This document shows, in pieces, positions 3,001-32,786 of a DNA stretch of 35,935 nucleotides. This DNA comes from a virus. A program made the position numbers and the translations under genes. The DNA is taken from the IMG/VR virus record IMGVR_UViG_3300030382_004741, positions 1 through 35,935 of that record; one strand, written 5' to 3'. The notes under the pieces were generated by a model. That model did not search any database, was not told the origin of the DNA, and saw nothing but the letters and a program-made list of their open reading frames with translations. How positions within the stretch are numbered: the first letter of the stretch is position 1; each line of letters begins with the position of its first letter.

Positions 3001-5215
3001 CTCTTGGAATTTTAGCCATATCCTCGGCTTTCATTCCTTCTGGATATTGATATTTCTCTGTTAAACGGTAACTTGGACCTTTTTTCTTTTTGGTCTTTAC
3101 CTTTTTAGCATAGGCCTCACTGGCCTCAGTAACCTTTTTAGATATGGCCTCCGGTGTGGTTGCCTCTTCCAGGGCCTGGATCAGATCCTCTGATACATTG
3201 CCTGCCTTTATTTCTCTTCGGAGCCTGTGGGCCTGTCTGAGGATGACTCTGGCATATTCTGCAAATCTATCAAGAATCTTCCGTAGTTGGGTCCCTGCTT
3301 TCTGAGGGAGTTTATTGTGCATCGCATACTCAACTGCTCTGTCCGAGAACCATTCAAGGTCCGACTGCTGTTGTTCCTGCTCTCCTGGTTTTTCCCAGGT
3401 GCCTTTCTCTCCTTCTTCTGTGGGGAGCCTATATCTTTTATCATCATATTTATTCCTCCATTCTGATATCTTACTTTCAAAATTTGGATCTATTTCAGCC
3501 ATGGCCTTATAATATTTCTCAGCCTCTTCTTCAACTACTGTCACTGGCTCTTGACCGGCAAATATTCTACTGACTGCCTTTCTTACTTTACCTGTGAACT
3601 CTGCAACAGTTTTACCATGTACTGTTACACCGGCAGGATCTGATTCATCACCTAAACCGGCATCAATCATCTTCTGCCTGGCCTGCTCTATAGTCAGTAC
3701 ACCTTCATCAACCTCATCCATAAGTGTTTGGAAAAACGGGAGATCCTTGATCTGGTTCAGTGGGTTATCCTTATCCTGGTAATACTTGATAAGGTCTTTC
3801 TTTGCTTTAGTTGCTACCGGGTCCTTCATTTCCTTTAATTTCCCGATACTCCTTTTTTTCATCTGTCTCTGGATTATGGTATCTTTTTCAACCTTATAAC
3901 CACCCTCTACCAGATCCTCTTCAATGCCCATTTCCATTTGTTCTTCTTTGGATAGGGTTGAAACAAAGTCTTTAAATTCCTGGTCTGTGACATCTTCCAG
4001 TTGCACCTCACCTTCAGGATCCATTGCAGATAATACTTTTTCACGGACCCCTTTCCTGTACTCTATAGCCTCCCCAAGTTCTTCCCTTTGTTTATTCTGT
4101 TTATTAATGGCCATAGCACTTGGTTTTGTTATAGTGTAACCTGCTCCTGCTCCTACAATATAACTATCTATGGCTCCCTGGAATAGATCCCTATTAGGGT
4201 CCTCACCTGTTAATTGTGCATTTAGATTTTGCATAACAGTTGTAGAGAACTCTTCCAACCCCTCCTGGTTAGCACTCTTTAAGGCAATAAACCTGTTTGT
4301 ACGGTTTTTGAATACTTCAAAGATTGTCTTCTTTAATATCTTTTCACCCTCTTCCTTACCCACCTGTTTGTAGAGATCTTTTGAAAGTTGTCTCAATGTA
4401 CGGCCTATTCCGGCAGATCCCATTTGCTCAAACACACCTTCAGCCATACCATCTACAAGTGCATTCATAACTTTTACATTAAAATCCATTGACGGTTGTT
4501 CTTCCATAAGTGTACCTAATTTTTCACCACCAGATACTACAGTAACAGTAGGTACCATTAGTTTTGCAGGAACACCATACATACCACCTGCAATCAGTGA
4601 GGCTGTATATGGAATGGACCCGACAATCCCCTGGGCCGTTAAACCTAATGCCGAATCCAGTTTACCTTCTTTTATATAATCAACAATTTGTTTATCATAC
4701 CGATTATTCACCTCCCGGTATTCACCAGAAAGGTCTTTGTAATATTTTGCTACAGGATTATTGGTAAGATATTCAGCCGTTGCAGAGTTATCTAAAAACT
4801 CAAGTCCTGGAAGTTTTGCCAGATAATTTTGTGGAATAGATACAAAACTATATATAAACCCTGGGAAACTTGCCATCCCCTGGCCAAGTCTTGCTGAACC
4901 TTCTGCAAGGGAATACCAAAGTCCTTCATAAAACCCTGCCTTTTCCGGATCATCCTTGGTGAGTTGTGTACTATAAGTATTGTTTAAAACTTTTTTCCGT
5001 ATCCCAGGATCTTCATCCTTAACAGAATTCTCAGTAGATTGGAATTGTTTTAATGTGGCATGGGGATCATCAGAGTTTATAAGTGTATGATGTCTTAGTT
5101 TTGCCCTCGCCAGATCCTTTTTGGACTCATCCAGTATTAGATCCAGTTTGTTCTTTGGTTTCTCCTGGGGACCCGTAAATCCATACTTTCGGGCCGATTC
5201 AAAAAAATCAGTCAT
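1..5215 (-). CDS. Giant polyvalent internal virion protein (C-terminus beyond left edge)
   Basis: Open from an ATG at 5215 to the left edge, at least 1738 codons with no stop. The start shares one base with the stop of the upstream gene (TAATG), so translation is probably coupled. The N-terminal third has hydrophobic or glycine-rich stretches near residues 115-132, 187-230 and 342-362, as in membrane-inserting ejection proteins. Further segments resemble those of large phage polyvalent proteins: near 622-640 (W, LPQKAG), 761-804 (AGYILNDGTMLDFSG then DHREI), 821-846 (GAIRW), 1318-1337 (ENWLRNN then EEIEWL), 1487-1522 (GYRELLL) and 1582-1618 (AHIRFN, then FLEEFQSDWH). The last visible part is VPDAPYK then KRML, where that family continues for more residues. 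The role inferred is a protein injected with the DNA that carries several effector domains. Placement after two ejection-like genes agrees. The family call is from motif memory, without alignment. Confidence 0.8.
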   Translation of the reverse strand, partial: MTDFFESARKYGFTGPQEKPKNKLDLILDESKKDLARAKLRHHTLINSDDPHATLKQFQSTENSVKDEDPGIRKKVLNNTYSTQLTKDDPEKAGFYEGLWYSLAEGSARLGQGMASFPGFIYSFVSIPQNYLAKLPGLEFLDNSATAEYLTNNPVAKYYKDLSGEYREVNNRYDKQIVDYIKEGKLDSALGLTAQGIVGSIPYTASLIAGGMYGVPAKLMVPTVTVVSGGEKLGTLMEEQPSMDFNVKVMNALVDGMAEGVFEQMGSAGIGRTLRQLSKDLYKQVGKEEGEKILKKTIFEVFKNRTNRFIALKSANQEGLEEFSTTVMQNLNAQLTGEDPNRDLFQGAIDSYIVGAGAGYTITKPSAMAINKQNKQREELGEAIEYRKGVREKVLSAMDPEGEVQLEDVTDQEFKDFVSTLSKEEQMEMGIEEDLVEGGYKVEKDTIIQRQMKKRSIGKLKEMKDPVATKAKKDLIKYYQDKDNPLNQIKDLPFFQTLMDEVDEGVLTIEQARQKMIDAGLGDESDPAGVTVHGKTVAEFTGKVRKAVSRIFAGQEPVTVVEEEAEKYYKAMAEIDPNFESKISEWRNKYDDKRYRLPTEEGEKGTWEKPGEQEQQQSDLEWFSDRAVEYAMHNKLPQKAGTQLRKILDRFAEYARVILRQAHRLRREIKAGNVSEDLIQALEEATTPEAISKKVTEASEAYAKKVKTKKKKGPSYRLTEKYQYPEGMKAEDMAKIPRGEQKRKLSVGESNEVQELAKDIFGTTEDPREAGYILNDGTMLDFSGKNEGGSSGMRNYDHREINRVGDDTEGVGGDPKWDDVGMNEFIDSGAIRWMPESNAFNFMGIPENAQWAQIREMVINDAGLVNPEYIQVEAETMGARYDERFYSEYDKGTPYETIKRDILNYFRGGKGPSITQQFHSSYRLSIEKGLEKLRTKPALRSPGKTETLTKSQIKVRVKRIIKDTLPRLLDMKKNRLEQFEESLSWYGDDFIKTIDIASQENDLVKEHQIIFTALIAITSSGQKVPVQYNDTIDIMNEYKRLGRLPIYEGMTTGEVPIKQLVVKIKGREKPLGAKRPGNMGLSVNKLQVLIDEFGIYGAEDWLTKKHFGKELNRIHRKAGAKGNQKGTLNTQRYRGMMTFGPKVGPFGLTFWNKTDIPVVDSWISRWHNRIMGTKFKDLVEIESPKNDPERNLIIEELNQLRDIFNKETGKDFSISQVQALVWYAEKLYYKDNDINYLEGVNYSRSANERATQKGYSKDPQGQLPVETAPGKKSKSKKESKGKLPEKVQVEPSYRLGPTWYSRAEKTVESKFPPTMVGMSVENWLRNNQVKPEEIEWLDISSLTKGKKRVTKQELLDYINANKIEVEDVFKGGGSVEADVTSYSEQELVDQFTDQEGEILLDEEFMEFLDDGIYHSFEIYKLKDKENSTFLLYTDEDYGNYSLEKIKWDPDWKGYRSVSLMDRNIQDMDKAVALMGMQSSESPQHALYQLPGESEGYRELLLIYPDKGKKFTWHYSYGENADEDGVDVFDDSVPDPETGMGTLRGSFKTLEEAKSFIKELEAKEGKAREPFIVPDAHKYTEENIMAHIRFNTRISPTGEKILFLEEFQSDWHSKGREQGYKRDIPDDERKEVRELSAEHKHLSSKIKELETSIKEITGDIGPLDLDYAKFPRLEDTEGTDADIALFNKLAKLKKRRADFKKDQKQVRREMRAITVTWGKVPDAPYKDKGWVELVAKRML

Positions 5216-5898
5216 TAGAACTTAATATTTTGTGATGCTAAATACTGTTTTCCTTTTTTACCATGTTGACCCACAAACTTAATAAGTGCTTTTTTAGTGG
5301 CCATTCTATTAGCAATGTCTCCACTACCTGGAGCCTCTTTTTGCATCTTATCTAATTCTTCTTCAAATATGGAATTTAGATGTTCCTTCATTTCTGATTC
5401 AGTATTATCATACATCTTTCGGACTTCCGGAGTAGTCATTCCGAGATCCATAGCATCCTGTGCAACACCCATAGAGTCTACATATGCAGAATAGGCCTCT
5501 CTTGCTTTTTCTGCCCCAGGCCCTGGTCTATCAAGCACAACTCTTTCTTTAAAAAATTCACCATCCTGTTCCTTATCAACAGTTGACAAATCCCATCCTT
5601 CTCCAAAATAATTACTTGCATCCTTTAAATATCTGTCAAAATCCCCTTTAGGACTTGATTCTCTCTTTGCCTTCTTTAATTTAATATCTGCCTGGATCTC
5701 TTCTGTTTCTCTTTTCTTTTTTTTCTTTTTTATCCCTTCTTCACTGGCCTCATATTTTATTTTATCAGCCTTAGTTTTTTCCTCTGTTTTTTTCAATTGC
5801 CTTTTTTCAACCCTGGCTGTATCATACGGCATTGTATATAACTCTGAAAGTTTTAATGGCTCAAATTTATATTGTTTTTTCTTTTTTATTTTGCCCAT
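5215..5898 (-). CDS. Lysine-rich virion-associated protein, 227 aa
   Basis: I do not recognise a family. The first 80 residues are extremely basic (MGKIKKKK start, further K-runs near residues 57-63), then the protein becomes acidic/helical with a likely coiled region around 165-190. The N-terminus matches those of two small proteins by the portal gene (17816-18055 and 18055-18399), suggesting a shared signal or DNA-contacting tail. It lies between the small ejection-like protein and the giant polyvalent protein, so an internal capsid or ejection role is likely. Its stop overlaps the next start as TAATG. It starts 10 bases after the previous gene. Confidence 0.75.
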   Translation of the reverse strand: MGKIKKKKQYKFEPLKLSELYTMPYDTARVEKRQLKKTEEKTKADKIKYEASEEGIKKKKKKRETEEIQADIKLKKAKRESSPKGDFDRYLKDASNYFGEGWDLSTVDKEQDGEFFKERVVLDRPGPGAEKAREAYSAYVDSMGVAQDAMDLGMTTPEVRKMYDNTESEMKEHLNSIFEEELDKMQKEAPGSGDIANRMATKKALIKFVGQHGKKGKQYLASQNIKF

Positions 5899-12943: not shown

Positions 12944-14008
12944 TTATGCTCCACCTACATATGGTGCATATGCTGTTGGACTTGCCACAGTACTGATAAC
13001 ACAATGTGCCCTACGGTTTGTAACAACCATATTCCCATAAGTGTGTACCTTCTGCACGAATGTATTACTCCTTGTGTCTTCCAACATATCGGATGCCGTA
13101 AACTTGGCTCCGGAATTGAAGAACATATAGAGATAGTTCGTGTTAATGAAGTAGATCCTTCCATCGGTATTATCTGCCTGTGCATTGACCATATCCTGAT
13201 CTGCAACTACATCAATACCTCTGAAGTTCAACCCTGTAAAGCCCATGGATCCCATTCTCTCGGACATCTTGGATCCCTGTTTCCGTGGATCAAGTTCATT
13301 CTCAATTAAGTCATAGATGAACTGTGGACAGACAATGATATCAGGATTCTCACCAGTATAACCTCTGGAATTTGCAACACCCTTTTGCAACAGTCTCAGG
13401 ATATAAGTATCCTTTGTACTGTCAAGCATCTCAGATTCAATGATTACATCACCGGCTGTATCATCAAAGTCAGTTCCATCAAGACTTGGTGTTTTCCACC
13501 AGGTATCACTTGAAACATCAATTCCACCAATATCAAATGAATCACTATCCGACAACAAGGTACCTATTGGATGAAACGCATCGGTAGCCTGGGCAACAGC
13601 AAAGAGATTCTCTGCTACTGTTTGTTCCAGGGACTTCTGAAGATTCTTAACCTTGGCTGAAACAATGTTCTTAATGGCCTGCTTAGAGTTCATCAAGAGT
13701 GTTTCTGCTTTAGTCAATAAGAAGTGACCGGTAAGCATTGTTGGATTGTATGTTGCTGATTTTGCAATCTCTTTATATTCCGGTGTGTATGCAGAACCAA
13801 GACCGTGTTGATCACCCCATGCTACTCCTGCACCATCATTATATTCAACTGGTACTGATATAACTCTACCGTTGAATGTTTTTGCCTTTCCCTTCAATAA
13901 TGCCAGAAGTGGATGAGATTTCTTAAAAATCTGATCAAACAACTCAGGCATATAATACTCTTGTATAAGAGCAGATAAAGAGGAAGAGGACGTTACTATG
14001 TTAGACAT
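12944..14008 (-). CDS. Major capsid protein (HK97-fold)
   Basis: 354 aa. It forms the shell of the head. The evidence is position directly after an acidic scaffold-like protein and before the adaptor, a typical length, and a sequence pattern seen in podoviral capsid proteins: an N-terminal helical arm (LIQEYYMPELFDQIFKKSHP), a VISVPVEYNDG strand, and a C-terminal region with NTDGRIYFINTNYLYMFF. The SD is strong (AAAGGAG) six bases before the ATG. A hairpin follows the gene. No slippery-site extension was seen. Confidence 0.82.
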   Translation of the reverse strand: MSNIVTSSSSLSALIQEYYMPELFDQIFKKSHPLLALLKGKAKTFNGRVISVPVEYNDGAGVAWGDQHGLGSAYTPEYKEIAKSATYNPTMLTGHFLLTKAETLLMNSKQAIKNIVSAKVKNLQKSLEQTVAENLFAVAQATDAFHPIGTLLSDSDSFDIGGIDVSSDTWWKTPSLDGTDFDDTAGDVIIESEMLDSTKDTYILRLLQKGVANSRGYTGENPDIIVCPQFIYDLIENELDPRKQGSKMSERMGSMGFTGLNFRGIDVVADQDMVNAQADNTDGRIYFINTNYLYMFFNSGAKFTASDMLEDTRSNTFVQKVHTYGNMVVTNRRAHCVISTVASPTAYAPYVGGA

Positions 14009-15217: not shown

Positions 15218-15748
15218 CTAATGCCCCTTCCCAAACATCTTCAACAGTTGTAAAAGTCCACCTCCACCTGCACCACCAAGCATTGCCAGATAATCCTGAA
15301 ATGAACCACCTTTTCCACCAAAATATTTACCTGCTTGACCCAATGCCGGAATCATACTTTGTTGAAATGGCATTCCACTTCCAGATCCAGTAACTAAATT
15401 TGAAACTCCCTGTGGAACACCTGCCTGTCCCATTGCATAGTTCCCTGCTCCCTTTAACATTGCTTGGCCAGGGTTTGCCATATTACCTACAAAGCCAATT
15501 GCATTTGCCCAACCTTGGGCACCCTCACCAAAGAACTGATCCTTAACACCTCCAATTCCACCTTTATAAGGTTCATCCCAATGCCGTGGTTTATCTCTGC
15601 CATGCATACCAAATGCTTTTTGCCAATCACTCCTCCCTTCATGCTTACCCCACTCTTTAGGCTTTACATAACTTCTCCAATCTCCTGCCTTACCACCTAA
15701 TCTTCCCTGGGATCCTACCTTTATGCTACTTGTTGTTGTTCCATGCAT
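15218..15748 (-). CDS. Glycine-rich structural protein, 176 aa
   Basis: No family recognised. The N-terminal 75 residues are basic and Gly/Trp-rich; the C-terminal 100 residues are Gly/Ala-rich and weakly hydrophobic, ending in GGGGLLQLLKMFGKGH. The composition suits a membrane-active or internal virion protein. Its ATG overlaps the stop of the 48-codon gene before it (TAATG) with a GAGGA SD inside that gene's last codons. It sits between portal and scaffold genes. Confidence 0.65.
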   Translation of the reverse strand: MHGTTTSSIKVGSQGRLGGKAGDWRSYVKPKEWGKHEGRSDWQKAFGMHGRDKPRHWDEPYKGGIGGVKDQFFGEGAQGWANAIGFVGNMANPGQAMLKGAGNYAMGQAGVPQGVSNLVTGSGSGMPFQQSMIPALGQAGKYFGGKGGSFQDYLAMLGGAGGGGLLQLLKMFGKGH

Positions 15749-15765
15749 TATTTAATCCTCATTAC
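15746..15765 (-). promoter_or_regulatory. Re-initiation module A (GTAATGAGG...TAATG)
   Basis: On the minus strand GTAATGAGG, then ATTAAA, then TAATG. GAGGA acts as SD for the next gene while encoding the VMRIK end of the previous one. The same arrangement occurs before the portal gene and before the 79-codon gene. Confidence 0.55.
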
Positions 15766-15894
15766 TCTCTTTCCACCTTCCATCTGCTTTCTCCGGGCCT
15801 CTGCCTGCTGTCTGGTTGCAAACCTGGCAACAACCTTTGGAGGTGGTTTCTCTGTCATCAAAAGCCAGTGTTTACCCTGTTGTACTACTAACAT
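15748..15894 (-). CDS. Short basic peptide with VMR-type C-terminus, 48 aa
   Basis: ATG at 15894, stop TAA at 15748-15750. Reads MLVVQQGKHWLLMTEK, then a basic helix with RKQMEGGKRV, and ends VMRIK. The end resembles those of the 79- and 114-residue proteins upstream of the portal gene (VMRVT, VMRVS). No strong SD is seen ahead of its own start. Its stop overlaps the next start (TAATG). The tight packing supports a real gene. Function unknown. Confidence 0.55.
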   Translation of the reverse strand: MLVVQQGKHWLLMTEKPPPKVVARFATRQQAEARRKQMEGGKRVMRIK

Positions 15895-15923
15895 CTAATT
15901 ATAATAGGTGGACAGATTCCCAT

Positions 15924-17816
15924 TTAGGCCCTGGGTTGAACATTTTGTTGTTCTTGCTCCTGCCCACCTACTAATCCTACTACTGAAATAATCCTTTGTT
16001 GCATATCAGGTGGCAATGACTTAAAAGAAGGACTCTCTGCCAATGCCGGTGCCTGCATTATTATATTAGCCAACTCTTCTTCTGCCGGACCACCAGGACC
16101 CTCCTGCATTGCCTGGGAAACTAATACATCAAACTTTTGCTGAAGTTGCTCTGTCTGTTCCTTCTGTTGCTGTGGTGGAACCATCTGGTTCCGGATATAC
16201 CAATTCTGGATAACCTCCTGCTTGTTATCAATATTCAAAGCATTAACTACCTCTTCTATACCTGTGATCCCTGCCCCAAATAACTGCATTGCCCTCTCTT
16301 CATTTGCTACACGGCCCTGGGCATACCTGGATCCAGTAGTGACATTTACATCAAACTGACTGTCTTTTAAACTCTTGGATGTCCTGGGATCAAACTCAGG
16401 TGAGGTTTCAGGGTTGCCATCTGAATCATATATACCCATTGGATCATATTGAGTAAACTGGAATTCACCCTCAGAATCCTTTTCACGGATGGATCTTGTC
16501 TGCTCATCAAATGCCAATAACATCTGGACCATAAACTCACCAATATCCTTTGTGAACTTGGCTACTTCCTTGTTTATCTTGAACCTCTGCCTGGTCTGAC
16601 TTGCCTCCTGGAGTGCCACTACAGCACGGCCTGAGAGATCCCTGTGGGTCCTACCCTGGGTAACATCATTTACACCAGAGATCTGCTCCATGAATAACCC
16701 CATCTGAGTAATAAAATTCTGCATATAAGCAGGGATTGGTGGGGGTGCCTCAAATGTTACATCAGTGGGATCTACAACAGTTATCTCTTCACCTGGTGCC
16801 CCCATGATTGGCCTGGTCATCTGACCCTTGGCCCGTTGGGTTACCTTCCTGATCGGGAAACCGGTCCTCTTTATGTTTTCATTTATTGCTGAGAAAACCT
16901 CATTGAATGATTTTGTTTGGGTCCTAACATTGTCAGGCTCACCAATACCCCAGAATGTATGGGGACTCTTGTAATTTGATACCATAAATATTGGAAGTCT
17001 GTATAGTTCCAGGGGTTCATCTACAATCAATTTATCCCCTACTATAATGGTATGTCTACCATGGGGATACTTTTCTATATCAGGCTCATTGGAATAACAC
17101 TCAATTAGTAGTGCTATATCATCATCTGCATCATGGGATCCATGGAACGGTGTTGATCCCTCATCTGATGCCTGGAATGCACGGTAGTCATCCAGTTTAC
17201 CCTCCGGTTCACACTTAACTCCATATTCCCGGTAGATCTTCCCTACCTCCATTGGAACTGCAAAACAAAAGTATTCACCCTGGTTTAAATTCAGGTCAGT
17301 TGCAAATGGATGAGGAATAACTGTAAATGGATCTATTATATGGATATCAAACCCGGTAAACACACCATCCTTAATCTCAGGCATAATCTGGATAAACCCA
17401 TTGGAATAGATCAGTGCATCCTTTACGGCCAGTAGGATCTTGTGATAGAGATCTGTTTCATCTACCACCTGCTGAAACCTCTTAGACATCATGTCTGCAA
17501 AATATACATCATTCTGCTCCCTGGGCATAATGTCCACAGTAGGCTGAAAGTCATTAATAATAGGTATAATGGTTTCAACAATAGCCAGGGGAAAATTGAA
17601 TGTTAACCTGGACTGATGCTCAGTACCCTTTGAAGGACTTGCCCAATGCCTGCCATAATACAGGTTCTCATTCTTTCTCCACCGGTCTGCCTGCCTCTCC
17701 CTGGCCTTCTTTGATCTGTCCAACCATGCCCGTATCTGTGGGATCCTGGTTGCTACATCTGCCAGTTCAGTTATTGGATCCTGGGATGCAGGATAGTAAT
17801 CCATGTTACCTGCCAT
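15924..17816 (-). CDS. Portal protein (podovirus type)
   Basis: 630 aa. The portal is the dodecameric ring through which DNA enters and leaves the head and to which the short tail attaches. Sequence supports the P22/T7-type: an N-terminal helix with RQADRWRKNENLYYGRHW, then LTFNFPLAIVETIIPIINDF, a DPFTVIPHP wing-like segment, a stem region with SINENIKRTGFPIRKVTQ, and VNDVTQGRTHRDLSGRAV. The C-terminal 100 residues are Gln-rich (barrel or tail-end). The start overlaps the previous stop (TAATG) with GAGGG as SD. It follows the terminase after two lysine-rich genes. Confidence 0.85.
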   Translation of the reverse strand: MAGNMDYYPASQDPITELADVATRIPQIRAWLDRSKKARERQADRWRKNENLYYGRHWASPSKGTEHQSRLTFNFPLAIVETIIPIINDFQPTVDIMPREQNDVYFADMMSKRFQQVVDETDLYHKILLAVKDALIYSNGFIQIMPEIKDGVFTGFDIHIIDPFTVIPHPFATDLNLNQGEYFCFAVPMEVGKIYREYGVKCEPEGKLDDYRAFQASDEGSTPFHGSHDADDDIALLIECYSNEPDIEKYPHGRHTIIVGDKLIVDEPLELYRLPIFMVSNYKSPHTFWGIGEPDNVRTQTKSFNEVFSAINENIKRTGFPIRKVTQRAKGQMTRPIMGAPGEEITVVDPTDVTFEAPPPIPAYMQNFITQMGLFMEQISGVNDVTQGRTHRDLSGRAVVALQEASQTRQRFKINKEVAKFTKDIGEFMVQMLLAFDEQTRSIREKDSEGEFQFTQYDPMGIYDSDGNPETSPEFDPRTSKSLKDSQFDVNVTTGSRYAQGRVANEERAMQLFGAGITGIEEVVNALNIDNKQEVIQNWYIRNQMVPPQQQKEQTEQLQQKFDVLVSQAMQEGPGGPAEEELANIIMQAPALAESPSFKSLPPDMQQRIISVVGLVGGQEQEQQNVQPRA

Positions 17817-17832
17817 TAGGTGACCCTCATTA
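17814..17832 (-). promoter_or_regulatory. Re-initiation module B before the portal gene
   Basis: Minus strand GTAATGAGGGTCACCTAATG: the codons for VMRVT carry the GAGGG SD for the portal gene, whose ATG overlaps the TAA. Confidence 0.6.
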
Positions 17833-18055
17833 CCTTTTTCTTTTTCTTTTTCTTCTTCTTACCACCTTCACCAAGAGGTAAACTTCCACCGGCAGACTCA
17901 GGGTATTTTAGTCCCATAGCCTCTTCTATTGCCTTGACTCTATCTTTAGCCTCTTTTAGTAATATACTTTTTGGTTTCTCCTGTACCCCACCACCAATCG
18001 GCTCATTCATATAACTGTAATCTGTAGTATTTTTCTTTTTCTTTGTTTTACCCAT
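17816..18055 (-). CDS. Lysine-tailed small protein, 79 aa
   Basis: Starts MGKTKKKKN and ends with nine lysines then VMRVT. The middle is short and helical (LLKEAKDRVKAIEEAMGLKYP). Function unknown; a DNA-contacting packaged peptide or portal-region factor is possible. Start and stop both overlap neighbours as TAATG. The lysine tail is coded by tandem AAAAAG repeats, prone to slippage. It shares both ends with the 114-aa protein beside it, so the two are probably duplicates that diverged in the middle. Confidence 0.6.
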   Translation of the reverse strand: MGKTKKKKNTTDYSYMNEPIGGGVQEKPKSILLKEAKDRVKAIEEAMGLKYPESAGGSLPLGEGGKKKKKKKKKVMRVT

Positions 18056-18071
18056 TAGGATACCCTCATTA
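18053..18071 (-). promoter_or_regulatory. Re-initiation module C
   Basis: Minus strand GTAATGAGGGTATCCTAATG: codons for VMRVS hold the GAGGG SD for the next gene, whose ATG overlaps the stop. Nearly identical to the module before the portal gene. Confidence 0.6.
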
Positions 18072-18399
18072 CTTTTTTCTTCTTTTTAGACTTTTTCTTT
18101 TTAAGTATCTTATTAGCCTTTCTTTTAAATTCCTTATCAGTATATGTTGTTATCTTACCATCCTTATTTTCTTCTCTATAAAATCCGGATTTAGGATCCC
18201 ATGAAGTAGTTATATCATTTACTTTCCCATCTTTTTCTTCCATCGTGTCCCACAGCCTTTCACCTGTATCTAAGTCTCTGGTAACCATTCTCTTCTTAGT
18301 GTGTTCACTTGCTTTTCCATCTTTTTCTGATATTTTATCAGTAAGTTTTGAGTAAATATGAGTCCTGTTTATTTTTTTCTTTTTCTTTATTTTACCCAT
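18055..18399 (-). CDS. Lysine-tailed small protein, 114 aa
   Basis: Starts MGKIKKKKK and ends in lysine-rich KKSKKKKK then VMRVS. The middle holds beta-like repeats (DTGERLWDTMEEKDGK; DPKSGFYREENKDGKITTY) resembling short strand-turn-strand units. Function unknown. It follows the terminase gene by 9 bases with an AAGGAG SD. It shares both N- and C-terminal basic ends with the following 79-aa protein. Confidence 0.65.
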   Translation of the reverse strand: MGKIKKKKKINRTHIYSKLTDKISEKDGKASEHTKKRMVTRDLDTGERLWDTMEEKDGKVNDITTSWDPKSGFYREENKDGKITTYTDKEFKRKANKILKKKKSKKKKKVMRVS

Positions 18400-18408
18400 C
18401 AGATCTCC

Positions 18409-19722
18409 TTACACATTGTCCCATAATGATATTGATTTATCTTCAACTATAATCTTATCAATAAATTTTTGTGTATCACTTCTCTTGTCTACAACCTTTA
18501 CGCTGTCCACAGCCTCTCCAACCAGGTACCTGAGACTATCCACGGCATGGTCATCCTTCTTTAATGGCTTTTCCGGTTGATTAAGTAATGCCCTGGATGC
18601 TGATGGTTGCTCCCACTGGTAGTTGATCATCTCCCGTTTGAGGTTGGTGCATGACTCCATTATCTTGATCTTATTCTTTTTCAGGTACTGAGTCACCTTG
18701 TCTATACCACCCTGGACATCATTATTGGCACCGACTACCGGGACCTTCAACTGCCTGTACCGGTTACCTATAGTCTCAGGATCATCCTTCTTCCCTGCTC
18801 CGGTGGATGGATCTATCACATAGGTTTCATACATACCTTCCTTCCGGTGGGCATTGATGACCTTGGCATGGTAGTCCACATCCTGGCCTGCCTGGTAGTG
18901 TTCCCGGTAGATCCACAGGTTATCATCCTCATCCACAGCACCCCACAGTACTGCTGTAGGATTGGTCCGGCCATGGTCTATGGCAATGAACCTCCTCCAA
19001 CTATGTGGGATATCCCTGTCTGCAACAACATGGGCCTTATTGCTGTAGTCCGGATAGATCTGCCCGGCAAAGGCATCCCAGGATCCATATAGGTACCTGT
19101 TGACCCAGATCTCATTGTAGTTGTTGATCAGACTATCTATATACCCTGGTGGCAGGTTGGCTACATTCTCCTCAGTCTTGGCATTGTACATGACATTACC
19201 CTCTACCGGATCATGGATGAACCTGTGCCATACCCAGTTGTGACCCAGGGGATTACCAGTGATCCAACACTTGGGATCATTCACGGCTCTGAGCCTGCCC
19301 AGGAGTGTGAGGAACACATCCTCTGATACCTCTTCTGCCTGATCTATGTAGAACCACCCCAGGTTGATGGACAGTAGTTTAGCCGGATCGTCCAGGGCAC
19401 GGAAGACAATCTCATGCCCATTCTTAAATAGGACCCGATTCTCCTGCTTATTGTATTCATAGTGGATCCCTGGGAGTAGCCCAAACATATGGGTCAACTC
19501 AAAGAATGTTCTCTGGGTAGAATCCCTTAACTCTGGGTAAGTGAGCCTGGAGATCATGCCCAACTGCGGAGGCTGATCTTTATCAAGCACTCTCACCAGG
19601 CCCTTTAAGATCCCTGCATAGGTCTTACCATTACCAATACCACCATAGAATCCCACAACCGGAGACTGATCCTTAATGAACCTGGCCTGGTTGGGGTTCA
19701 GATCTATGTTGATAGTCTTCAT
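18409..19722 (-). CDS. terL: Terminase large subunit
   Basis: 437 aa. It is the ATP-driven DNA packaging motor and headful/cos nuclease, acting at the portal. Walker A is GGIGNGKT at 27-34, the Walker B-like strand WFYIDQAEE is at 123-131, and a coupling-type ITGNP is near 154-158. The C-terminal RNase H-like nuclease shows acidic residues in AIDHGRTNP (D249), VIDPSTG (D304) and KKDDHAVDSLRY (D391/D395). Full-length for the family. The preceding gene ends 37 bases earlier, and the SD is AGGA before the ATG. GC content looks higher than in the tail-fibre genes. Confidence 0.93.
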   Translation of the reverse strand: MKTINIDLNPNQARFIKDQSPVVGFYGGIGNGKTYAGILKGLVRVLDKDQPPQLGMISRLTYPELRDSTQRTFFELTHMFGLLPGIHYEYNKQENRVLFKNGHEIVFRALDDPAKLLSINLGWFYIDQAEEVSEDVFLTLLGRLRAVNDPKCWITGNPLGHNWVWHRFIHDPVEGNVMYNAKTEENVANLPPGYIDSLINNYNEIWVNRYLYGSWDAFAGQIYPDYSNKAHVVADRDIPHSWRRFIAIDHGRTNPTAVLWGAVDEDDNLWIYREHYQAGQDVDYHAKVINAHRKEGMYETYVIDPSTGAGKKDDPETIGNRYRQLKVPVVGANNDVQGGIDKVTQYLKKNKIKIMESCTNLKREMINYQWEQPSASRALLNQPEKPLKKDDHAVDSLRYLVGEAVDSVKVVDKRSDTQKFIDKIIVEDKSISLWDNV

Positions 19723-29903: not shown

Positions 29904-32786
29904 CTAATTCTTATGTTTATTTACACCTGCAAGGTAGTTATCTTCAATTTCATCTTCTGATAATGCTTTGTTGAAGAACATTACCTCATCTATCATACCT
30001 ACATGACCGGAGCCACCACCACTCCCTTGACCAATTCTATCTATTGTTGTATCTAATTCCAAAGTATCGCTAGAATCATGCATTGAAGTCATAGTTTCCT
30101 TTAAAACAGCATTGATGTATATTTTGCATGAGGCTCCTTCTCTTAGAACAGTTATGTGCATCCAGTCAGTTGTATTTATTGCAGTTGTAAGTGCTGTGGC
30201 ATCAAATAAATAATAGGGTACTCCTATTCTCACATAAAGTTGAAGGTGACGATTAAGATATAAGAAATAATCAGAAGAATTGTCATCTTCACCTAATGGA
30301 ACAGTAATATCAACAGTTGGGTTATCTCTTTTTAACCATAGAGAAATAGTAGATAGTTCTCCTAAATTAATTGATTGTCCCAAATCTACATACTCACTCC
30401 CACTAAGATTTAGCCACCCATGATTCGGATGTGTAAGAGGGAAGCCGAGTAAATCTTTACCGGCAGTAGTGCCTTCTGGGATGAGGATTGTGTCTGGAGA
30501 ACCAGAAGATGTTAAATCATCTGAGCCTTCTAAATCTGTCCAAGTAGATGCCCCATCATTTTTCCAATAACCTACAAGTTCTGATGATGCTGAATGAGTA
30601 GTAGCATCTAAGGCTACACCATCATTAAATAGTTCTTGTACTTCAGCAAGAGATAAATCATCATTCCATAGGGAAACTTCAAAAATTTCTCCATCCCAAT
30701 AATTACCAACACCAGTCCGTGTTAATACTCCAATAGTAATATTATCTCTTTCTGCATCCCCAGTTACATTTAACCAATTACCATCATTCTCAGTAGATGT
30801 CGCTAATGTTTCAAGATGTCCATCTATATACAATTTATAAGCAGAACCATCGGCAGTTAATACACAATGATGTAGTTTATCATCATTAATACTTGTGGTA
30901 CTTTTTACCTGTGATTCAGAATCATCATTCTTTTCCCACATATTTAATTCACCTTGATACATACCAAAATCAAGATAATAGTCATCAGTACCAGTATCAG
31001 AAGTACCGAAAATAGTTCCACCTGTCAAACTACTTGGACATTTCACCCAAGCAGATATTGTTCCACTTGAATCTGATGCTCTATAATTAGCAACTGCCTT
31101 TGTTAGATAATCATCAATCCCATCAAACACCATAGGTTTACTATATCCCATCAAAGCAGTCTGTGGAATTAAAGGCTCTGCATCGGCAGTTGTCCAACCA
31201 GAGGCGACACCTACTTCAGTAATCTTTAGATCCTTTAACTTAAACTTCTTTCTACCAAGATCATCAGTAACTTTAAAGCCCCACCTGGAAGTTGCTGATG
31301 TTGCATCAGTCACTATAGTCTCAGATAATGAAGTATAGGTAGTAGTCTCCAATGCAGAAATAGTAACGGCTGTACCTTCCTTATATGTAGTTCCATTATA
31401 AATAACAGGAGTGACATCAAAATCAGAACCTACATCTTTGTTTAGAACTTTAAATTCAACTAAATAACTACTGCCTGCTGTTCCACTAAACTCACTATAG
31501 ACATAAGAGCCAACCCCCTCATTACCATGTTCATACCGATCAGTACTAAAAGAAAGAGTAGCAGAAGTCCCTGTGGTGGTCCAATTTCCTGCAATATTAT
31601 TTGCTGATGCATCATCTTCTTTTATCACTTCTGTGAAAGTAGTAGTACCATGATTGCCCATTTTGACTTCTTTGACAACAACATTATCCCAATTAGATGT
31701 CTTTGATGCCACTTGATGCATCAAGATTAATCTAGTACCAGAACCTGCTATTTGTGGGACATATACTGTAAAAGCAGTCCATTCACTCACTACAGGTAGT
31801 GTTTCATAATTAATAGAATTGCCACAATAGATTCTTACAATATTATCAGTCTTATAATAGCCAGTTACTTTATAAATAGCCCCAGATACTGTAGCAGATA
31901 TAGTTTGTTCTGCACCTTCATATGTTGTTGAGCCATCAGTCTCTACCTTTAAAGATTGACTCCCTGCATAAAAAACAGAAGTATCTTTTGATACAGTTAC
32001 TCCAGTTTTATCATCCCAATTATCTGTACCTGCTAACTCCATATCTCCATCTGTAACTAAATCACTCCCCAACTCTTTAGGAGAACCATCAAGTATTGAA
32101 GTTTGGGGACTTCTTGGACTCCCCTCTGCCATCGGATACCAAGCCTTTAGATTGGATATGGTAGTACCAGATGTTACTGAACTATTGTGTGTGATTAGTT
32201 TCTCAGGATGTGTGTATGCATATTGTACATCTGATAAAGACCAAGCCTTGTCCCAGAGTTGGACATTGGTTATTTTGCCAGTAGCAAAATGTTCAGGAGT
32301 AGCATCAATCTTCTGTGCTCCAAGCCCAAATTCAGAAGCACCATCAGCCTCTAATGATGCATCAATAGATGAAGTATTTTGAGCAGACTGTTCTCCATTA
32401 ATATATACTGTAATACTTGTCCCTCCAACATATACACAAACAATATGACACCACTGGTCTGCAACTAACACATTCCCAGTAACTTGATTTTGTGCATCAT
32501 TAATACCAAAATTTATTGTTGCATTAGTATGGTAAATATATAAAGGTCTGTTAGTAGAATCATTTTGCAATTTGGAAACTAAAGTCCCACTAACATTCAC
32601 AGCAGATGGTTTGAACCACAATGATACTGTCATAGCAGTATATCCCTCTAATAATGGAGAAGTACCAGAAGAAACATAATCTGCAACACCATCAAACTCA
32701 ATGGCTCTACCTGAGTAGAGTACCCCAAAATCTGGAGGAGAGCCGAGTTTGTAAGGATTAGTTCCTGCTGATATTGTAGTCGCCAT
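29904..32786 (-). CDS. Multi-LamG tail protein, 960 aa (probable receptor-binding)
   Basis: It contains three concanavalin-type LamG domains: about 28-200 (FDGVADYVSS, MTVSLWFKP, ITVYINGEQ), 545-730 (FDGIDDYLTK, GTISAWVKC, YKLYIDGHL) and 785-955 (GSEYVDLGQ, STISLWLKR, CKIYINAVL). Between the first two lie two jelly-roll segments resembling carbohydrate-binding modules (about 240-375, 385-535). It would bind glycans on the host surface. The start overlaps the preceding stop (TAATG); SD is weak, so coupled. The block is AT-richer than the head genes. No enzyme active site seen. Confidence 0.72.
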   Translation of the reverse strand: MATTISAGTNPYKLGSPPDFGVLYSGRAIEFDGVADYVSSGTSPLLEGYTAMTVSLWFKPSAVNVSGTLVSKLQNDSTNRPLYIYHTNATINFGINDAQNQVTGNVLVADQWCHIVCVYVGGTSITVYINGEQSAQNTSSIDASLEADGASEFGLGAQKIDATPEHFATGKITNVQLWDKAWSLSDVQYAYTHPEKLITHNSSVTSGTTISNLKAWYPMAEGSPRSPQTSILDGSPKELGSDLVTDGDMELAGTDNWDDKTGVTVSKDTSVFYAGSQSLKVETDGSTTYEGAEQTISATVSGAIYKVTGYYKTDNIVRIYCGNSINYETLPVVSEWTAFTVYVPQIAGSGTRLILMHQVASKTSNWDNVVVKEVKMGNHGTTTFTEVIKEDDASANNIAGNWTTTGTSATLSFSTDRYEHGNEGVGSYVYSEFSGTAGSSYLVEFKVLNKDVGSDFDVTPVIYNGTTYKEGTAVTISALETTTYTSLSETIVTDATSATSRWGFKVTDDLGRKKFKLKDLKITEVGVASGWTTADAEPLIPQTALMGYSKPMVFDGIDDYLTKAVANYRASDSSGTISAWVKCPSSLTGGTIFGTSDTGTDDYYLDFGMYQGELNMWEKNDDSESQVKSTTSINDDKLHHCVLTADGSAYKLYIDGHLETLATSTENDGNWLNVTGDAERDNITIGVLTRTGVGNYWDGEIFEVSLWNDDLSLAEVQELFNDGVALDATTHSASSELVGYWKNDGASTWTDLEGSDDLTSSGSPDTILIPEGTTAGKDLLGFPLTHPNHGWLNLSGSEYVDLGQSINLGELSTISLWLKRDNPTVDITVPLGEDDNSSDYFLYLNRHLQLYVRIGVPYYLFDATALTTAINTTDWMHITVLREGASCKIYINAVLKETMTSMHDSSDTLELDTTIDRIGQGSGGGSGHVGMIDEVMFFNKALSEDEIEDNYLAGVNKHKN

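Follow-up and report, generated by a model that had tools for sequence, protein, structure and literature searches.

The window (the whole stretch of DNA analyzed here, a 35,935-base virus record) carries its head and packaging genes on the minus strand. Read along that strand, the terminase large subunit (18409..19722; phrog_2, E 1e-41) is followed by a 114-aa lysine-rich gene (18055..18399), the product of which ends in KKKKKVMRVS, and a 79-aa lysine-rich gene (17816..18055), the product of which ends in KKKKKVMRVT. Next come the portal gene (15924..17816, 630 aa; phrog_156, E 8e-37, with ∼70 relatives among viral contigs), a 48-aa gene (15748..15894) with the product end GGKRVMRIK, a 176-aa gene without a family match (15218..15748), and the capsid gene (12944-14008). 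Pfam and PHROG scans of the small proteins returned no significant families. The 114- and 79-aa genes have the first ∼24 nt of their coding sequence in common, the shared first bases at the minus-strand starts 18399 and 18055 being ATGGGTAAAAYAAAGAAAAAGAAA, and their middles are unrelated. A 227-aa gene at 5215-5898 starts with MGKIKKKK too.

The three small genes end in a common base pattern. The junction motif GTAATGAGGNNNNNNTAATG has exactly three matches in the window, all on the minus strand: GTAATGAGGGTATCCTAATG (18053..18072), which combines the codons of the shared terminal peptide, a GAGG Shine-Dalgarno sequence (SD) and a stop-start overlap; GTAATGAGGGTCACCTAATG (17814..17833), which precedes the portal gene; and GTAATGAGGATTAAATAATG (15746..15765), which precedes the 176-aa gene. 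In 100 dinucleotide shuffles of the window the motif had no match. The genes upstream of these junctions encode the 114-, 79- and 48-aa proteins and those downstream the 79-aa protein, the portal and the 176-aa protein, respectively, with the TAATG overlap typical of coupled gene pairs at 18055, 17816 and 15748. The initial annotation had described small basic genes ending in a motif, a spacer of 5–6 bases and TAATG; all three window copies of GTAATGAGG-N6-TAATG do lie at gene junctions, with a spacer of exactly 6 nt in each. Its further statement that the same bases encode the VMRV/VMRI end and supply the SD of the portal gene and two others fits the sequence, with an SD-like GAGG or AGGA in the last codons. 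The geometry is GAGG at a distance of 8 nt from the ATG or, for the 176-aa gene, AGGA at 7 nt. These are modest 4-nt matches; 18 of the 39 tabulated window genes have stronger SDs of 5–7 nt. One more exact copy of GTAATGAGG, the fourth, is internal to a long gene (31517-31525), and with one mismatch allowed this 9-mer is not above chance frequency in the window, so it stands out only together with TAATG. Ordinary translational coupling is plausible from the sequence of the three junctions because each joins a stop-start overlap to GAGG 8 nt before the ATG. In prokaryotes, the upstream member of an overlapping pair commonly carries an SD within its 3′ end (PMC6728339), and coupling at overlapping genes has been demonstrated, with a variable contribution of the SD (PMC6728339, PMC12548453). 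The window has the SD-like motif expected within the terminal codons of the upstream member of a coupled pair; among relatives the motif is not constant.

About 70 portal-bearing viral contigs were gathered as relatives. These comprise near-identical copies of the window (L001, L002, L025 and others), close relatives with a portal 80–85% identical (L003, L004 and L005), a broad clade at 66–71% and three further contigs at 52%. The 114-aa gene has 100% identical copies in L001, L025, L028, L029 and L337. Among 50,697 phage records, the sole tblastn match to the portal was a weak one in Bacillus phage Pony (21% over part of the length), and the 104-, 175- and 48-aa proteins had none; no portal relative was confirmed in bacterial and archaeal genomes. 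In many relatives the terminase gene directly overlaps the portal gene by TAATG. The interval between the two is a hot spot where small plug-in genes occur in many combinations, the contents (in aa) being none; 49; 92+49; 104+92+49; 104+92+51+72; 92+51+72; 72; 106; 114+79; and 175 (from L292, L339, L342, L289, L305, L307, L328, L316, L324, L309 and others), and its gene joints are mostly exact or near stop-start overlaps such as TAATG. On the other side of the portal, L006 and L010-L021 of a sister clade encode a conserved protein of ∼160–173 aa, ahead of the next head gene, with an HxDG...H pattern that by its look makes it a putative 2-oxoglutarate oxygenase. A possible internal TAA in the capsid genes of relatives proved to be the ordinary terminal stop in all five cases checked.

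A scan of gene ends in the relatives placed the end x-[V/I]-[M/I/L]-[R/K]-[V/I]-x-stop, a short tag with a loose class definition derived from the very sequences tested, in six small basic families. Two of these are the 114- and 79-aa families of the window, between terminase and portal. The others are the 48-aa family (the window, L003, L004 and L005), a 175/173-aa family directly before the portal in L003 and L004, a 104–109-aa family (L289, L290, L292, L339, L341 and L342) and an 86-aa family after the portal in L310. The 48-aa homologues in L003, L004 and L005 end in TVMRIT, TVMRVT and KIMRVT; in L004 and L005 the 48-aa gene was not seen to be followed by the 176-aa gene. After trimming of the last 12 residues, blastp found no significant similarity between the six families. 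The same terminal peptide, as in a sorting tag, is carried by otherwise unrelated proteins. The 114- and 79-aa genes may represent one duplication, since both start and end are shared, and the independent families may then number five rather than six. All tagged genes lie within ∼1–2 kb of the portal gene, and in the longer contigs of about ten relatives the strict end occurred in no genes beyond the tagged families. The 175- and 173-aa proteins (L003:4477-5004 and L004:126-647) have common ends and strongly different middles, as if an internal segment had been exchanged.

The peptide is conserved more strictly than the bases that encode it. All 12 distinct ends keep the residue class V/I, M/I/L, R/K, V/I with varied codons: GTA, GTT, GTC, ATA and ATT for the first hydrophobic residue, ATG, ATA, TTG and TTA for the second, AGG, AGA, AAG and AAA for the basic residue, and GTA, GTC, GTT, ATT and ATA for the last hydrophobic residue. 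At all three hydrophobic positions, every one of the 12 ends has T as its second codon base. Four of the 12 ends keep the peptide class without a usable SD. The 175- and 173-aa proteins of L003 and L004 end in KVMKIN (GTC ATG AAG ATT AAC; GTCATGAAGATTAACTAATG), L292 has KILRIN (ATT TTG AGA ATT AAT; TTGAGAATTAATTAATG), and L342 and L339 have KIIKIK and KVIKIK (ATA AAA ATT, with ATAAAAATTAAATAATG in both). The initial annotation had named just this case, relatives in which the peptide survives in different codons with no SD, as one that would refute its reading. Its proposed comparison of codon-level with base-level conservation gives a divided answer. The peptide class is invariant while three of the four GAGG bases vary across the 12 ends; an AGG preference and a third-base excess nonetheless remain. 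Arginine in the shared ends is AGG in eight of nine cases, compared with 37% AGG use across window genes. Between families, third-base identity reaches 0.59, where free codon choice would give 0.41 (p ∼0.016); both comparisons serve as guides only, as the ends are partly related and not all independent. A base-level layer probably exists in the shared ends, given the AGG preference and the third-base excess.

The end is also specific. A codon-free pattern, K-[K/R]-K-[V/I]-hydrophobic-[K/R]-[V/I]-x-stop overlapping ATG, was scanned against 2.9 million viral contigs and matched 47 stretches. Wherever the ORF upstream was at least 70 aa long and the one downstream was real, the stretch comes from the phage group of the window, and these stretches span five families (114, 79, 175/173, 109 and 86 aa). 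The strict end occurs in ∼1 of 3,900 unrelated viral ORFs outside pattern-selected sites, a background based on mechanically picked longest ORFs rather than curated genes, versus three of the ∼40–50 window genes. The exact bases behave differently. The exact junction motif is repeated only within contigs nearly identical to the window, and relatives use other bases. A 14-base junction pattern matches at least 120 stretches elsewhere, scattered and almost never more than one per stretch, and many of these matches have no real in-frame gene; some junction matches are unrelated proteins that merely end in VMRI. The portable cassette of the initial annotation was rejected on these grounds, its matches elsewhere, among those listed, being scattered single ones and many of them away from real gene ends.

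At the level of sequence, the peptide class is common to families without detectable similarity elsewhere, is written in varied codons and does not need an SD. Among the sequences compared, it is also confined to this phage group and to head and packaging genes. We put roughly even confidence in the explanation that it is a lineage-specific C-terminal docking or targeting peptide on interchangeable head-module plug-in proteins, with AGG secondarily used as an SD. Small basic plug-in proteins beside the terminase and portal would then bear x-[V/I]-[M/I/L]-[R/K]-[V/I]-x-COOH, usually after a lysine-rich linker. The tag may act as a short linear element for docking or targeting; it would probably be an extended strand and bind one common virion-assembly partner (the portal, a scaffold or the capsid interior). 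Different small, probably DNA-binding proteins might thereby be brought to one place, as by a capsid-targeting or cargo-loading peptide. In the lineage of the window, the arginine codon AGG would double as the SD of the coupled next gene, as a secondary use. A more pointed form of this explanation, which we hold tentatively and at well under even confidence, is a sorting code: the tag would load the interchangeable terminase-portal plug-ins at the portal or into the head, perhaps for injection, in codons that can double as a ribosome-binding site.

The initial annotation had instead taken the peptide for a by-product of a coupling signal, with selection acting on GTAATGAGG-N6-TAATG as a ribosome signal and VMRV/I being simply what the bases encode. 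Several observations fit such an origin: the normal SD geometry (GAGG at 8 nt) with a TAATG overlap, the AGG preference and third-base excess, and the frequency of SDs in upstream 3′ ends in prokaryotes (PMC6728339). The sister clade (L010-L021) offers what does look like a by-product. There, small basic genes downstream of the portal end in KGY, encoded by AAAGGATAT and followed by TAATG or TAATTG, and the KGY end looks like an SD by-product because the AAAGGATAT bases persist in L017 and L020 as a leader where no gene end reads them. For the V/I-type end, the peptide class is retained without an SD in L003/L004, L292, L339 and L342, and a peptide that survives loss of the SD has the look of a tag for docking or sorting, not of a side effect of tightly packed genes. 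Moreover, xxG AGG is all that an SD with this spacing determines, which leaves the flanking V/I at two positions unexplained, and the junction is not enriched elsewhere as a repeated cassette. Other genes before the portal also provide an SD through different peptides. Plug-in genes in this position usually carry one (AAGGA where the end is SRK and also in the 106-aa gene, GAGGT where the end is EVGK, and GAGG in the window), and in unrelated small genes it comes with the end peptides SRK, SRKA or EVGK; a terminase running straight into the portal usually has none. The SDs at these junctions thus arise from whichever codons each family has, and the tag is a separate layer. We consider a by-product origin unlikely.

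Shuffling of gene ends, in which recombination or duplication among neighboring small genes gave the 3′ ends a common origin and their similarity mainly reflects that past, with little function of its own, is in our judgment improbable as well. It would account for the 114- and 79-aa genes, with their common start block and end and unrelated middles, and it suits the terminase-portal interval, a hot spot where small genes come and go and are joined by exact stop-start overlaps. Third-base identity between families does exceed free codon choice, an excess that gene-end shuffling or an SD constraint would also produce. Ancestry alone, however, would not explain a constant second-base T and residue class alongside changing first and third bases and SDs, and the tag is found on both sides of the portal and in the distant relatives L310, L339 and L342. 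Very unlikely, finally, are independent structural ends (in the 48-aa protein a terminal strand, in the lysine-rich ones tails that are hydrophobic and basic by chance), given a strict-end background of ∼1 in 3,900 ORFs and a contig-wide scan in which real genes with the lysine-rich form occurred only in this phage group. The end of the 48-aa protein taken singly could be a structural strand, as on our reading the chain might adopt a small strand-helix fold with a strand last; its AlphaFold2 prediction (mean pLDDT 53.8) is too poor to place the tag, as is the low-confidence prediction for the 106-aa family.

If the docking or targeting peptide is indeed a sorting signal, it would give a short handle by which virion or injected accessory proteins could be spotted among the many small orphan genes that uncultivated phages carry, and a candidate peptide, likewise short, for loading cargo into a phage head. 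The locus is also a clear example of base-level and peptide-level signals in the same codons, separable by comparing relatives.

Known systems offer parallels for both layers. The capsid targeting sequence (CTS) of phage T4 is N-terminal and is removed by the prohead protease, unlike the C-terminal tag of this phage group, and we claim no homology between them. Partial PHROG scans of the window, in which many proteins had no family match, named no protease. The likeness lies in the arrangement: T4 internal proteins are diverse and only their CTS is conserved (PMC3012670), and here too diverse small phage proteins have only a short putative sorting peptide in common, the cargo varying and the tag being constant. 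Encapsulin targeting peptides are short C-terminal peptides that load unrelated cargo into an HK97-fold shell (PMC8346489). The phage-group tag likewise is a short C-terminal end on unrelated proteins, but its sequence differs from the TVGSL-like motif, its setting is a phage head, and binding to the shell is hypothetical. We draw both comparisons as analogies and do not claim membership in either system. At the base level, the junctions resemble termination-reinitiation coupling in their TAATG (-1 nt) overlaps and in an SD within the 3′ end of the upstream gene. They differ from ordinary coupling in that the SD-bearing codons also encode a conserved peptide, one that outlives the SD in relatives.
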